Shown one piece after another: positions 1,742-36,651 of a stretch of DNA of 41,223 nt (the stretch's first letter is position 1; every line of letters starts with the position of its first letter). The position numbers and the translations under genes are program-made. This DNA is from a virus. Location: IMG/VR virus record IMGVR_UViG_3300036770_001425, positions 1 through 41,223 of that record; one strand, given 5' to 3'. Below the pieces are notes generated by a model. The model made no database searches and was not told the origin of the DNA. It was given only the letters and a program-made list of their open reading frames with translations.

Positions 1742-2415
1742 GCCGCACCTCCAAAGTTCGGCTTGGTGTTTGCTCTAAGCCACTCAGCTTGGGCAGCCCT
1801 CGCGGCAGCCCTCGCGGCAGCCCTCGCGGCATCCCTCGCAGCATCCCTCGCGGCATCCCACGCGGCATCCCACGCGGCAGCCATCGCGGCATCCCTCGCG
1901 GCAGCCCTCGCGGCAGCCCTCGCGGCAGCCCTCGCGGCAGCCCTCGCGGCAGCCCTCGCGGCAGCCCACGCGGCAGCCCACGCGGCATCCCTCGCGGCAG
2001 CCCACGCGGCAGCCCACGCGGCATCCCTCGCGGCATCCCTCGCGGCATCCCACGCGGCATCCCACGCGGCAGCCCTCGCGGCAGCCCACGCGGCAGCCCA
2101 CGCGGCATCCCTCGCGGCATCCCACGCGGCATATAACTCCTCATCCGTCGCCTCCCCATTCGCGTGCCGCTCAGCCACGTCCAGCGCGGCAAAGCTGCGC
2201 GGGTCGGTCAATAGGTGCTGGACCTGACGAGCGGACCAAACGGCGAAAAGTCGAAGCTCTCGCTCGGTCAGCACACCCTCGCGCGTCGCGGCCCAAAATA
2301 AATATTCCGGCGGCAGCTTCCCCCACGCGTCCTCCACAGACGCGCAGTTGGCGAGTGCCCATGCGCGACCTTCGCTGCATGCGCCGTGCAGGTCGCAAAA
2401 TTCGGTGATTGTCAC
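1738..2415 (-). CDS. Ala-rich tetrapeptide-repeat phage protein with conserved N-terminal domain
   Basis: 225 residues starting at a GTG that overlaps the recombinase stop (GTGA). Residues 1-95 form a globular domain ([51 protein letters not shown]) that I associate from memory with phage proteins sometimes annotated as putative immunity proteins. Residues about 95-209 are a run of four-residue repeats [D/A]-A-A-[W/R/M], which should make one long helix with Trp and Arg spiralling on its surface. The repeat comes from a 12-bp minisatellite. A short [11 protein letters not shown] tail follows. Function unknown. The array length is likely to vary between relatives. Confidence 0.8.
1793..2132. 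repeat. 12-bp tandem minisatellite inside the Ala-rich gene
   Basis: About 28 copies of a 12-base unit built on GCAGCCCTCGCG (plus strand), with substitutions at only a few positions: CAG or CAT, CCT or CCA, and one CCATCG. Because the unit is a multiple of three and lacks stops in any frame, most frames read open across it. Only the minus-strand frame that continues into the conserved N-terminal domain is taken as coding. Confidence 0.95.
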
Positions 2416-3296
2416 TTCGCACCCCCCATCTGCGGAAGCAGTTGAAGAACGACGGTAGCATGTTCATCGGACAACGCGCTCAACTTGTCACCCTGCTTGA
2501 TATAGCCGCGACCGACCAAGATCGGCTCAAGCTCGGACCATTTAACGCCGCGTCCTTTCACGGCGTCGCGGACCTGCTCCTGCAATGTGGGAGGCTTCTG
2601 GAACTGTGTAGCTGGATTCGGAGGTGCGACCGGCAAAGCCTTCGGGTCGGCTTCAACCTCACCTTCCGGCATGACTGTCCCGGTCATCTGCTCATAGCAG
2701 CGCTGAAGGAACTTCCGCTTGGCCTTGCCAAGGCTCTGGTCGGCGGTGCTGTAGTCGTCACGCTTGACCGGAATCGAAGCCTTCAAGCTCTGCGCGACTC
2801 CTTGGTTCAACCACTCCGCCTCACAGTCGATGATTGAATGCGCGCCTTTGTCCTGCGGGATGCCAATAGACAGCTTGAAGTTGCTAATCTCCTTTAGCCC
2901 GCGAATCAGGAACTCGAAGCCCTCCTTCGTGCAATACATCCGACCGGACAAGATGTTCCACTGGTTACCCACCAACTGGAGCCCGCGCAATCCAGCCTCG
3001 ATGGCGCAGTCCTTCACCACCTCGTAGCCGTATGGTTCGTTAGGTTGCCCAGTCTTGCGATTCTTAACCTTCGGATCGCGGTCCGTCCTGAATCCGATTG
3101 GCGTGTCTTGCAACGCCTCCACGCGGCTCTGAATGCCGGGATCGTCGAACATCCGGCGAAGGTCCTGGACGGCTTCCGCGACCTCAAGGGCCGCGGTGAT
3201 GTTTCCGGCGTTGGCCTTGCCAAACGCTTCGATTGCGCGGGTATTCGCGACGGCCAGAGCGGCTGACGTTGACTGATTGATTGGTGCGAGTTGCAT
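2412..3296 (-). CDS. RecT-like single-strand annealing recombinase (putative)
   Basis: 294 residues. The region from about 90 to 215 has the pattern seen in phage RecT-type proteins: VVKDCAIEAGLRGLQ, GNQWNILSGRMYCTKEGFEFLI and a late KAKRKFLQRCYEQMTG helix. The C-terminal third is Pro-rich followed by a small helical domain. It sits with the PD-(D/E)XK exonuclease, so the pair plausibly forms a Red-like double-strand-end recombination system. Followed by a GTGA overlap. Preceded by a two-base gap after a 47-residue membrane protein. Assignment rests on motif memory and context, not on a database match. Confidence 0.68.
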   Translation of the reverse strand: MQLAPINQSTSAALAVANTRAIEAFGKANAGNITAALEVAEAVQDLRRMFDDPGIQSRVEALQDTPIGFRTDRDPKVKNRKTGQPNEPYGYEVVKDCAIEAGLRGLQLVGNQWNILSGRMYCTKEGFEFLIRGLKEISNFKLSIGIPQDKGAHSIIDCEAEWLNQGVAQSLKASIPVKRDDYSTADQSLGKAKRKFLQRCYEQMTGTVMPEGEVEADPKALPVAPPNPATQFQKPPTLQEQVRDAVKGRGVKWSELEPILVGRGYIKQGDKLSALSDEHATVVLQLLPQMGGAK

Positions 3297-6113: not shown

Positions 6114-6314
6114 TTACGCAATCACCTCAAGCGCTTTAAGCGCAACTGATTCCAGCGCAAAAAGAATTTTGGCACTCGGCGAACGCTCGCCTTTCAAGAT
6201 CCTGGAAACCGTGGATTTCGCCACGCCTGCACGCCTCGCCAACTCGTTGTTGCCAACCTTCGTCCGCTTCATCGCCCGCTTGATCGCGGCAATCCTCTTT
6301 TCCGTTTCAGCCAT
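6114..6314 (-). CDS. XRE/Cro-type helix-turn-helix repressor (66 aa)
   Basis: The core NELARRAGVAKSTVSRILKGERSPSAKILFALESVALKAL is a classical HTH_3 fold. It lacks a C-terminal autocleavage domain, so it is Cro-sized rather than LexA/CI-sized. Start chosen at MAETEKRIAAIKRAM (6312-6314); a longer frame upstream has no family character. It points away from the plus-strand island, with a candidate plus-strand promoter beginning 29 bases from its start codon. It therefore probably sits at a divergent genetic switch and may repress both directions. Confidence 0.85.
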   Translation of the reverse strand: MAETEKRIAAIKRAMKRTKVGNNELARRAGVAKSTVSRILKGERSPSAKILFALESVALKALEVIA

Positions 6315-6342
6315 CCGCGGACGTTGCCACGCGGAAACGCTG

Positions 6343-6371
6343 TTGACAAGCGGGAACAGGGCGGGCATTGT
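6343..6371 (+). promoter_or_regulatory. Candidate sigma70-type promoter for the plus-strand island
   Basis: A perfect -35 box TTGACA (6343-6348) is followed after 17 bases by a weak -10 CATTGT (6366-6371). It lies between the divergent repressor and the tRNA-like segment, pointing toward the HNH operon. A GTTGCCAC box at 6323-6330 next to it could be a repressor site. Confidence 0.4.
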
Positions 6372-6437
6372 TTGCGGCGTTCTTTTCCATTTCGGGCGCG
6401 TACTGGTATCGACTCCCGCCGCGTCCACCAATTTACA

Positions 6438-6550
6438 CCCCTCGCCCGGCACGGTCGCCGGCCAGGAACAGGGCTCTCCCATGCGGTTCGACTCCGCAAC
6501 GCGTCAGGTGTGTGCAGGGAGTCCACGCGGGTTCAATTCCCGCCGAGGGG
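6438..6550 (+). other. tRNA-like segment: perfect acceptor pairing and T-arm, odd middle
   Basis: GCGGG-TTCAATT-CCCGC (6527-6543) is a textbook T-arm, directly followed by CGAGGGG (6544-6550). That strand pairs perfectly with CCCCTCG at 6438-6444. A second T-arm-like hairpin TGCGG-TTCGACT-CCGCA lies at 6482-6498, and ATCGACTCCCGCCGCGTCC at about 6407-6425 resembles a third decayed copy. The total of 113 bases is too long for a normal tRNA, and I could not fit a proper D-arm plus anticodon arm. It may be a decayed tRNA pair, an attachment site carrying tRNA or tmRNA 3' ends, or a novel structured RNA. Confidence 0.35.
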
Positions 6551-33294: not shown

Positions 33295-33467
33295 TCAGGT
33301 CTCCTTTGCTTTGGATCCAGCAGTTCGCGCAACTCGGTGTCTTGGCTTGCCTCAATGGCTTGAAGCAGTCGCCTTGAAGCCTCCTTCTCGGTCTTGAAGT
33401 TTGCATCAAGTTGCCTTTGCAGAAGCCACATAGCCGCTTGCCTCAGTTCGATCTCAGTTTTGCTCAT
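33291..33467 (-). CDS. Short helical protein after the helicase (58 aa)
   Basis: ATG at 33465-33467 overlaps the helicase stop (ATGA), and the TGA overlaps the next ATG. Helical throughout (KTEIELRQAAMWLLQRQLDA, ASRRLLQAIEASQDTELREL). It might act as a helicase-associated factor; no family recognised. Confidence 0.6.
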   Translation of the reverse strand: MSKTEIELRQAAMWLLQRQLDANFKTEKEASRRLLQAIEASQDTELRELLDPKQRRPE

Positions 33468-34771
33468 TCCGGTCTCTCTCTTTCTCTTTCTTCAAACCTA
33501 CAAAATGCACCTTCATACGAAAGATTCACCACACCACATTCGCCATCCCGCTGCTTGCCCACGATAAGGCATGCGTCCCCAGACCTCTCGTGACGGTCCC
33601 TATGGAGGAGCGCGATTAGATCGGCGTCACGTTCAATCTGCCCGCAGTCTGCCAACTCAGAAATCTTCGGCATGCGCGGCTTTTCCTTCTCGCTGTCGCG
33701 GTTGACCTGAGCGAGTGCGACCAAGGTTATACCTGTGGACTCCGCTATACTTTTCAGCTTCCCGCTGACCTCCGCAACCTCATACGTCCGCTTGTCGTTG
33801 CTCTTGGACGCTGGGACCTTTTGGAGGTAGTCCACGAAGGCCACGCGGATTCCGTGACGTCTAACGGCCATCCGGATTTGCGCGCACACCACGTCCACGC
33901 TTTCGCCGCGGGTGAGTTGCAGCCATTGGATCGGCGCGGCCTGTGCCTTGGACATGGCTGAAAATATCCGGCGTTGCTGCGCCTCGTCCATTCTGCCCGC
34001 CTTGAGGTCTCCCATCTCCACCCGCGACAGGGAAGCCACCATGCGACGCATCAGCCCCTTGTTGTTGGTCTCGTGGCTGACGAACATGGATGGGATCTCG
34101 CCGTGCACCGCGCAAGCCTCCAGCATGTTCACAGCGATGGCCGTCTTGCCGATGCTTGGCCGCGCTCCAATCACCCACATTTCGCCGCGTTGCATCCCTT
34201 CCGTCATCCAGTCGAGTCGCTGAAAGCCAGTAGTCACTCCTGAAAGCCTGCCCCCGAGGTCAACGCGACGTTGCAAGTCGTCGATGAAATCGCGGGCAAC
34301 CTCTCGGGAGGTCTGTGGCTTGGCTCCAGTAGGCTCAGAAATGGCCAGCGCCGCCTCTATACGCCCCGCCAAGGCATCCAAACCCACGGAAGGGTCGGAT
34401 GCGCCAGCCGCCACGTCCTGGCCCATGGCGTGAATCTTTCGCCGTTGGAAGGCTTCTCGGACGCCTTGGGCGAAGTACGGAGCATTGGCGGCTGACGGGC
34501 AGGCGTCCCAAGCCTCGCCCCAGAACGCAAACGGGACAGGCGTGTGCGGGTAGATCGTCGGCCACTCACGCCCGAGGCTCACCATGTCGATCGGTTTGCC
34601 CTCCGTGAGCATGCCGGACAGGACGGCAATGGAATCTCGCACCCTGTCGTCAATAATCATGTCCAGCGTGACCACGGACAGGACCTCTGCCAGCACGTCG
34701 GAGCCGCCAGAGAAGCATGCGCCAAGGATGCCGATTTCGTCGGCAGGTGAAACGAGCGCGGACGCCTTCAC
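33464..34771 (-). CDS. DnaB-type replicative helicase (435 aa)
   Basis: N-terminal helical domain (DEIGILGACFSGG, LDMIIDDRVRDSIAVLSG) then a RecA-like ATPase: Walker A GARPSIGKTA near residue 202, Walker B AFVDYLQKV, sensor ALAQVNRD, and the HRDRHE arginine-finger region. Unwinds DNA at the fork and is loaded by the upstream initiator. Start probably the GTG at 34769-34771 (GTGA overlap, GGAGG eight bases upstream); an ATG six bases earlier is possible. Length matches DnaB-family helicases. Confidence 0.9.
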   Translation of the reverse strand: MKASALVSPADEIGILGACFSGGSDVLAEVLSVVTLDMIIDDRVRDSIAVLSGMLTEGKPIDMVSLGREWPTIYPHTPVPFAFWGEAWDACPSAANAPYFAQGVREAFQRRKIHAMGQDVAAGASDPSVGLDALAGRIEAALAISEPTGAKPQTSREVARDFIDDLQRRVDLGGRLSGVTTGFQRLDWMTEGMQRGEMWVIGARPSIGKTAIAVNMLEACAVHGEIPSMFVSHETNNKGLMRRMVASLSRVEMGDLKAGRMDEAQQRRIFSAMSKAQAAPIQWLQLTRGESVDVVCAQIRMAVRRHGIRVAFVDYLQKVPASKSNDKRTYEVAEVSGKLKSIAESTGITLVALAQVNRDSEKEKPRMPKISELADCGQIERDADLIALLHRDRHERSGDACLIVGKQRDGECGVVNLSYEGAFCRFEERERERPE

Positions 34772-35610
34772 AGGCATTTCCTCCAATCCTCGCCGTCAAA
34801 CAGGTCCTTTTTGCGCTCCACGAGGCTCCCCCAGTGCTTCGCAAGCGCCGAGGAGGTCAGGTCCCAATCGGGATGAAGGCGCCTGTAGGTTGAAGCCTTG
34901 GCCTTGATGTCTTCGGCAGTCACGTTGGGTTGAACCTCCTTGATGTCTCGCAATGCCGTTGCGGCTTGTGCCCATGCTGGCCTTGTAGTCGATGGAATAT
35001 CGCCACCGCATGCTTCAACGATTGCATCGATGAGTGGATTGCGTTGGGTTGGCTTCCTTTGCTTCTTGGTCTTCGCAGGCTTCTCGCCTTCTGACGGCTT
35101 GTCCGGCAGAGCCCCCTTTAGGGGGTTGGGGGGTGTAATATGTTTTTCTGAATCTGCCTCTGCATCTGAATCTGCCTCTGCATTGTCTCTACTCGACTCC
35201 ACCTTGTTCGACGGCGATCTACTCTGATCTACTTTTTCTACTTTCGTTTCCGATCTCTTCTTGGCCGCGTACTTCCTCTTTGCCTCCAACGCGCTCTCTT
35301 CATCCCTGATGGCGCGATACTTAGCATGATTAAGAAGCCTCCAGCCGCCGTCGATAGGCTCAACCCTTCGCCCTTCATGGTCGGGCGTGCGGCTGTACTT
35401 GTCCGGCTTCTGGAAGCGGTCCAGCGCATCCTCACAAGCTGCCAGAGACACCCTTGCGCGGTTGGCAAGTCCTGGAATTGACGCCCAGATGCGCCCATGC
35501 CTGTCTGCCATTGCAAGCATTGTGATCCAGACAATGCGAACGGAATCAGGCTCCGCCCAGATGGTGCTTTCGGTGATGGACGAGAAGAGCTTGGTGAAGG
35601 TTGTGCTCAT
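34768..35610 (-). CDS. Replication initiator / replisome organiser with winged-helix N-terminus (280 aa)
   Basis: Residues 1-100 (TESTIWAEPDSVRIVWITMLAMADRHGRI, IPGLANRARVSLAACEDALDRFQ) are typical of phage replication proteins (lambda O/DnaD-like winged helix). A disordered, Lys/Asp/Ser-rich linker (residues about 115-185) follows, then a C-terminal domain beginning IDAIVEACGGDIPST, with THETA-like helices (EDIKAKASTYRRLHPDW) that may load the DnaB helicase downstream. The linker's DNA carries 10-bp-phased GTAGA repeats, and more lie just upstream of the ATG. The origin is therefore plausibly inside and in front of the gene. Confidence 0.82.
   Translation of the reverse strand: MSTTFTKLFSSITESTIWAEPDSVRIVWITMLAMADRHGRIWASIPGLANRARVSLAACEDALDRFQKPDKYSRTPDHEGRRVEPIDGGWRLLNHAKYRAIRDEESALEAKRKYAAKKRSETKVEKVDQSRSPSNKVESSRDNAEADSDAEADSEKHITPPNPLKGALPDKPSEGEKPAKTKKQRKPTQRNPLIDAIVEACGGDIPSTTRPAWAQAATALRDIKEVQPNVTAEDIKAKASTYRRLHPDWDLTSSALAKHWGSLVERKKDLFDGEDWRKCL
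35187..35241. repeat. 10-bp-phased GTAGA repeat cluster inside the initiator gene
   Basis: On the plus strand CTCTAC (35187), CTCCAC (35197), TTCGAC (35207), ATCTAC (35217), ATCTAC (35227) and TTCTAC (35236) recur every 10 bases (last step 9). On the coding strand these read GTAGAX. Ten is not a multiple of three, so coding cannot generate the spacing. It lies in the flexible linker of the initiator, as lambda iterons lie within O. Confidence 0.65.
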
Positions 35611-35620
35611 TTCCTTGTGA

Positions 35621-35676
35621 CTCTACAGCTATCTACCGCGATCTACAAACATCTACAGTAGATATTTGGTATCTAC
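35621..35676. repeat. 10-bp-phased GTAGAT repeat cluster in front of the initiator gene
   Basis: CTCTAC at 35621 and ATCTAC at 35631, 35641, 35651 and 35671 (plus strand) keep exact 10-base phase. At the 35661 position the sequence instead holds the same box inverted (GTAGAT at 35658-35663). The run sits between the PP-loop gene and the initiator ATG and reaches within 10 bases of it. Likely an operator or origin bound by the initiator. Confidence 0.7.
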
Positions 35677-36447: not shown

Positions 36448-36557
36448 GAATTAAAAATCCCGCCGCCGTGACGCCTGAGAAATCGCGGCCAAAAAGGCAG
36501 CGGGTGCCCGAAAACAGCACGCGATGGTTTACGCCACGGGGCGGGGAAAGTGTTCAT
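36444..36557 (-). CDS. Possible 37-aa basic protein
   Basis: Occupies most of the gap between the methyltransferase and the PP-loop gene. It starts at the ATG at 36555-36557 and ends in an ATGA overlap with the PP-loop gene. The product is Pro/Arg/Phe-rich (HPLPFWPRFLRRHGGG). The junction style supports it; the length does not. The same gap (36448-36651) also carries an ATCTAC box (36619-36624) and a TTCTAC box (36557-36562). Confidence 0.35.
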   Translation of the reverse strand: MNTFPAPWRKPSRAVFGHPLPFWPRFLRRHGGGIFNS

Positions 36558-36651
36558 TCTACAGTTTTCGTTGGTCTTCGCTCGGCTTCTCAGGACCTTG
36601 CGCTGACGTCGCGTTTCTATCTACGCGGGTGGAAAGTGCAAACCGGAGTTT

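Follow-up and report, generated by a model that had tools for sequence, protein, structure and literature searches.

Phased short boxes within and ahead of a phage initiator gene co-vary with one another and with one face of an initiator helix

The window, by which we mean the whole stretch of DNA analysed, is a 41,223-bp IMG/VR virus record. An open reading frame on its minus strand (34768..35610) encodes an initiator of 280 residues, with a winged-helix domain (residues 1-94), a long helix (residues 95-129), a disordered linker, and C-terminal helices. In the AlphaFold model of this protein, pLDDT is about 90-99 over residues 11-120, the long helix directly follows the wing, and the linker is predicted to be disordered. 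The end of the gene is overlapped by the gene for a DnaB-type replicative helicase (33464..34786, minus strand), recognized by PF03796 (E=3e-64) and by phrog_19 (E=9e-64). A DnaB helicase adjoins the initiator gene in some relatives of this locus as well, and a DnaC/IstB-like loader in others; BLAST detected the downstream DnaB in only 12 of 62 relatives.

In its winged-helix N-terminus the initiator may resemble the Phage_rep_org_N (PF09681) organisers and the DnaD-like helicase loaders, but the window protein differs from the organisers in matching no Pfam model. Among 49 relatives, thirteen matched HTH_36, four matched Phage_rep_org_N (weakly, best E 0.012), and three gave weak matches to a DnaD-like loader PHROG (best E 6e-4). 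Phage_rep_O (PF04492) matched neither the window protein nor any of the 49, which sets the family apart from lambda O by sequence, and a search for Rep_3-type matches found none. Fold searches with the initiator returned only generic winged-helix matches from PDB and uncultured phage proteins from BFVD; we found no solved structure related by sequence and no NCBIfam name.

Two clusters of short boxes, one in the linker and one before the gene, accompany the initiator. The linker array (35187..35241, minus strand) reads GTAGAA (35236-35241), GTAGAT (35227-35232), GTAGAT (35217-35222), GTCGAA (35207-35212), GTGGAG (35197-35202), and GTAGAG (35187-35192), with spacings of 9, 10, 10, 10, and 10 bp. 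The upstream cluster (35621..35676, minus strand) has GTAGAT at 35671-35676, 35651-35656, 35641-35646, and 35631-35636 and GTAGAG at 35621-35626, all in a single 10-bp register, and its last box ends 10 nt before the initiator start codon. An inverted box, TCTAC (35658-35662), fills the vacant position of this register. Because it replaces the missing direct box, the cluster begins with a 19-nt palindrome, GTAGATACCAAATATCTAC (GTAGA-N9-TCTAC, 35658-35676), followed by four direct boxes at 10 bp. An earlier note on this DNA had described both clusters, with no mention of the palindrome, and had placed their boxes at exact 10-base intervals; both clusters are indeed there, and the exact interval describes the upstream register, while the linker array has one 9-bp step and variant words in two of its six boxes.

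The window holds 61 copies of GTAGA where 26.9 would be expected, and none of 300 first-order Markov sequences of window length contained three or more GTAGA in one 10-bp-phased hexad. Chance or low complexity as the source of the boxes is ruled out by this control together with the synonymous-codon control described below. A search for a consensus sigma-70 promoter at the upstream cluster found none. The GC-skew analysis that the note had recommended showed no switch at the initiator locus, and it is uninformative in a window whose genes are almost all on the same strand. Two further GTAGA boxes, at 36557 and 36619, had been pointed out as well. Both are present in the window and kept in a sister phage (L002), but they add no evidence, since they are conserved there only along with the entire intergenic stretch, and we rejected them as part of the system. 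That stretch (36448-36651), which lies before a PAPS-reductase-like gene, is almost identical in the two phages. In 499 kb of relatives' flanks only one extra box cluster was found: the sister phage has its putative operator, palindrome and boxes together, a second time, located at -567 to -517 before the initiator and ahead of an inserted 131-residue open reading frame.

We scanned viral contigs and, once, bacterial genomes, and obtained 128 loci encoding the same N-terminal domain, from which we took a non-redundant set of 99 loci, less than 85% identical. Relatives in cellular genomes come from Solimonas, Luteimonas, Verrucomicrobia, Novosphingobium, Planctomycetota, and others, and are presumably prophages. 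The family is rare in such genomes, with draws of 369, 388, and 385 genomes giving one match beyond the centre genome, and tblastn against an annotated phage collection found no relative at the sensitivity used. The phased GTAGAT word alone proved unsuitable as a search key: it found 23 unrelated IMG/VR stretches (L082-L104), most of which look like plain tandem repeats, with phased units up to nine in a row, none of which encodes the initiator. One 60-kb contig (JAOTVV010000018.1) carries two initiator loci, L117 and L118, near its two ends and with identical match scores; the pair may stem from a duplicated element or from assembly of a circular phage.

Comparison of these loci shows that the linker array is conserved as DNA. 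An exact pair of 5-mers at lag 10 occurs in the linker zone of 78 of the 99 loci, whereas redrawing the codons synonymously from the same gene gives a mean of 22.2 (maximum 32 in 200 redraws); lags of 9, 19, 20, and 29-31 are also raised. The relatives' linker boxes are direct repeats of 5-6 bp, spaced by 9 bp in 50 cases, 10 bp in 94, and 11 bp in 30, close to one helical turn. Loss of phasing with retention of the protein, which the note had named as a refutation, is not seen for most relatives. That the linker periodicity does not come from codons, as first suspected from the window alone, is borne out by the same comparison. One could suppose that the linker DNA is repetitive simply as a consequence of encoding a repetitive, disordered peptide, given that the linker is predicted to be disordered and that most loci encode an AEAEAE-like peptide. 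The synonymous redraws, however, give far less phasing, and in 61 of the 64 loci with at least three copies the boxes use two or three reading frames within one gene; a repeated peptide is therefore not the cause of the linker boxes, and we regard this explanation as almost certainly wrong.

Directly after the boxes lies a (CAGANN)n hexamer repeat (35147..35183, minus strand), which is likewise conserved as DNA: among relatives its reading frame varies, and so does its strand. CAG chains average 3.7 units in relatives and 1.6 in synonymous redraws, and the peptides encoded vary among AEAE, QKQK, SRSR, and, when the repeat is on the other strand, SASA or LPLP, a further point against a peptide origin of the linker repeats. 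The hexamer repeat is followed by a short AT-rich stretch, AAAAACATATTAC (35134..35147, minus strand), a candidate unwinding site. In relatives, the 30 nt after the CAGANN repeat have a GC content of 0.40-0.42, compared to 0.55 for the gene; in the window the AT-rich part is only about 14 nt long. Beyond it is a perfect hairpin, CCCCCTAAAGGGGG (35112..35125, minus strand). Short hairpins are often found at this place in relatives, where the region 25-55 nt after the CAGANN repeat has a mean stem score of 14.8 versus 12.2, and short perfect small-loop hairpins exceed the synonymous-codon null in 10 of 83 loci with 2 expected, which is weak evidence. Near the repeats, a search for DnaA boxes found few DnaA-box-like sites, none notable. 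The combination of linker array, CAGANN repeat, and AT-rich stretch is a probable origin.

The box word itself differs from phage to phage. We count about 13 distinct words of 5-6 bp across the relatives, the linker words including GTAGA, GTGGAC, GTAACG, GTCAAC, GTCAAT, GTCAGC, GTCCC, GTTAGC, GTTAAC, GTCGAC, GTGACG, and TCCGAC, and about 35 word changes by parsimony on a weakly resolved tree. We were able to assign a linker word to 85 of the 99 loci. We compared it with the 100-120 nt before the gene and found 58 loci with a word callable on both sides, in 46 of which the two words are the same; shuffling gives 9.8 agreements, with a maximum of 21 in 10,000. An unbiased test of shared 6-mers between upstream and linker regions was positive in 44 of 92 loci versus 10.2, while own-gene control stretches of equal length gave 3-5. 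In the remaining 12 of the 58 the two words disagree, perhaps because the linker segment was exchanged recently or because the upstream sites belong to other proteins. Three of these (L031, L036, and L045) have the upstream word GTAACG and the linker word GTCAATGAC, possibly through a recent exchange of the linker segment.

The upstream site in relatives has a fixed geometry of its own: a box, 8 bp, an inverted box, 1 bp, and another box, sometimes with direct boxes at 10 bp. Among the 46 matched loci, 26 inverted pairs had start-to-start distances of 13-14, and 18 divergent pairs a distance of 6. This layout of palindrome and half-sites suggests a probable autoregulatory operator. It also bears on the role of the two clusters, for which either a two-part origin or an origin plus an operator had been considered. 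With the initiator binding both clusters, it might be the upstream one that serves as the origin, or that contributes an equal share of a two-part one, leaving the linker array as an accessory or titration site; the window's cleaner 10-bp direct array is the upstream one, and F and other iteron plasmids retain a second set of iterons, which works by looping (PMC13028717). In relatives, however, the upstream site is mostly a compact palindrome with one half-site, whereas the linker holds the direct array together with the CAGANN repeat and the AT-rich stretch, and a linker word is callable in more loci than have a matching word upstream. We therefore consider an upstream or two-part origin unlikely, and favor an origin inside the initiator gene together with an autoregulatory operator of unusually short unit, the reading toward which the phasing, the position, and the co-variation of words in relatives all point.

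The nearness of the last upstream box to the start codon, beside the ribosome-binding site, could also mean that the boxes act in mRNA as a site of translational autoregulation. Boxes occur on either strand among relatives (L007, L027, L029, and L123), however, the array keeps the helical pitch of DNA, and palindromic double-stranded words are frequent, so that we judge action in mRNA to be very improbable.

Mutual information with the box word is highest at initiator residues 111, 115, 114, and 118, which lie on one face of the long helix in the AlphaFold model. At equal overall identity, residue 111 is the column that differs most between loci with different words (0.51; next column 0.19). 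It is Lys in 23 of 23 GTAGA loci and 14 of 15 GTGGA loci, Glu in all five GTCCC loci, Asn in 5 of 5 GTCAGC and 5 of 5 GTCAAT loci, Leu in all five loci with the sense word GTCAAC, and Gln with GTCGAC and GTTGAC. In the window, codons 111-115 of this specificity helix (35266..35280, minus strand) encode K111 R112 K113 Y114 A115. The co-variation of residues 111-115 with the word is not an overlap effect, because their codons lie upstream of every box; that of residues 118 and beyond is partly trivial, since these can overlap the first box in a few loci. The recognition helix of the helix-turn-helix (residues 56-67) was considered as the specificity element and rejected, as it shows little association with the box word.

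Rules relating residues to words were fixed in writing ahead of fetching new loci, whose words were then read by the same analyst. Of the 12 new loci that could be evaluated, 11 agreed with the rules, including one soft call; the miss (L293) was predicted to have GTCA and has mainly GTAAGC. When words were assigned from the nearest neighbor, residues 111, 112, 114, and 115 gave 15 of 16 words correctly in the new loci and the winged-helix domain 9 of 16. With neighbors limited to less than 60% identity, the four residues still gave 14 of 16 and the winged-helix domain none of 16; leave-one-out on the first set gave 76 of 85 and 56 of 85, respectively. Shared ancestry inflates the naive statistics, and independent pairs on well supported branches number only 1-4 per rule, all differing ones in the expected direction and none significant alone, but the distant-neighbor test argues against ancestry as the cause. 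These results bear equally on the proposal that both clusters are sites for a repressor, some other protein of the phage, with the initiator gene merely under its control. The window has a CI-like HTH gene (6114-6482), and the upstream palindrome alone resembles any repressor operator. A repressor would nevertheless leave unexplained why four initiator residues predict the word, across distant relatives and new loci, and why an array in the coding linker changes with them; we regard it as improbable.

Phages of this family, then, carry two box arrays each, conserved at the DNA level, whose words shift together and in step with one face of one initiator helix. The likely interpretation of these sequence patterns is that the initiator itself binds the GTAGA boxes, with the linker array, CAGANN repeat, and AT-rich stretch as the origin and the upstream palindrome and half-sites as the autoregulatory operator. 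The long helix after the wing, through a contact face of residues 111, 114, 115, and 118, would read the 5-6-bp word, with one protomer per helical turn. About six protomers would then be aligned on one DNA face along the linker array, where they may unwind the neighboring CAGANN repeat and AT-rich stretch and bring in the replicative helicase, whose gene adjoins that of the initiator. Initiator bound to the palindrome and half-sites ahead of its own start codon would limit its own synthesis.

The arrangement recalls two well-studied systems. In lambda, origin iterons lie in the middle of initiator gene O, with an AT-rich tract on one side, and the product of the following gene recruits the helicase (PMC7466680, PMC5043065); there are four 18-bp iterons and a 38-bp AT-rich tract (PMC3349717), and the iterons bind O dimers (PMC5043065). 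Here too the repeats are inside the coding linker of the initiator, which presumably binds them, and adjoin an AT-rich stretch, but they are six boxes of 5-6 bp at one-turn pitch rather than 18-bp inverted-repeat iterons, and a separate putative operator carries the same word, whereas the lambda operon is controlled through pR. RepE of the F plasmid acts at direct repeats in replication and at an inverted repeat ahead of its own gene in autoregulation (PMC13028717), and the iterons of plasmids stay in register with the turns of the DNA helix (PMC5043065). An inverted repeat of the box word before the initiator gene, with putative autoregulation, is the likeness to RepE; in contrast to that system, the iterons here are inside the gene, the unit is much shorter, the Rep_3-type match is absent, and the specificity helix comes after the wing and is not the recognition helix of a helix-turn-helix. 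By analogy, the design would work like lambda O/ori-lambda combined with plasmid-F RepE, without their Pfam signatures and with a far shorter binding unit. Lactococcal TP901-1-type organisers also have the origin inside the gene. A short-period repeat directly beside initiator boxes is found as well in the DnaA-trio or DnaD recognition element of Bacillus subtilis oriC, a proposed single-strand binding region (PMC10797057, PMC10201434), although the repeat there consists of TAG/TAA trinucleotides and not of CAGANN with a period of 6, and the present locus has no DnaA boxes of note. Our search of the open-access literature found no earlier description of such an arrangement; one may exist elsewhere.

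We lean toward a broader view of this locus as a self-addressed origin cassette, in which a transferable helix code of a few residues and its cognate array lie no more than about 150 bp apart in one gene. Replication specificity would therefore be switchable in one recombination step, with the operator following, and many mutually orthogonal phage origins could result. To our knowledge, just a few model phages account for most of what is known about the origin specificity of phage initiators. A single family here offers about a hundred natural protein-DNA pairs, some 13 target words, and a compact code that predicts unseen pairs, with built-in controls in that the two arrays of each phage are expected to agree. 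This makes the co-evolution of initiator and origin directly testable, and likewise the code by which the amino acids of a helix read DNA. The box code should help to find the origins of metagenomic phages when only their sequence is available, and the family may provide orthogonal replicons for laboratory use.

Two further features were seen near the other end of the window. An open reading frame rich in Ala and Arg (1738-2415), which matches only PHROGs of unknown function, contains 28 copies of a 12-bp tandem repeat at 1792-2131. An Exonuclease VIII-like gene lies near an open reading frame of 294 residues without a family match (884-1741 and 2412-3296), the latter placed where a RecT-type partner would be expected.
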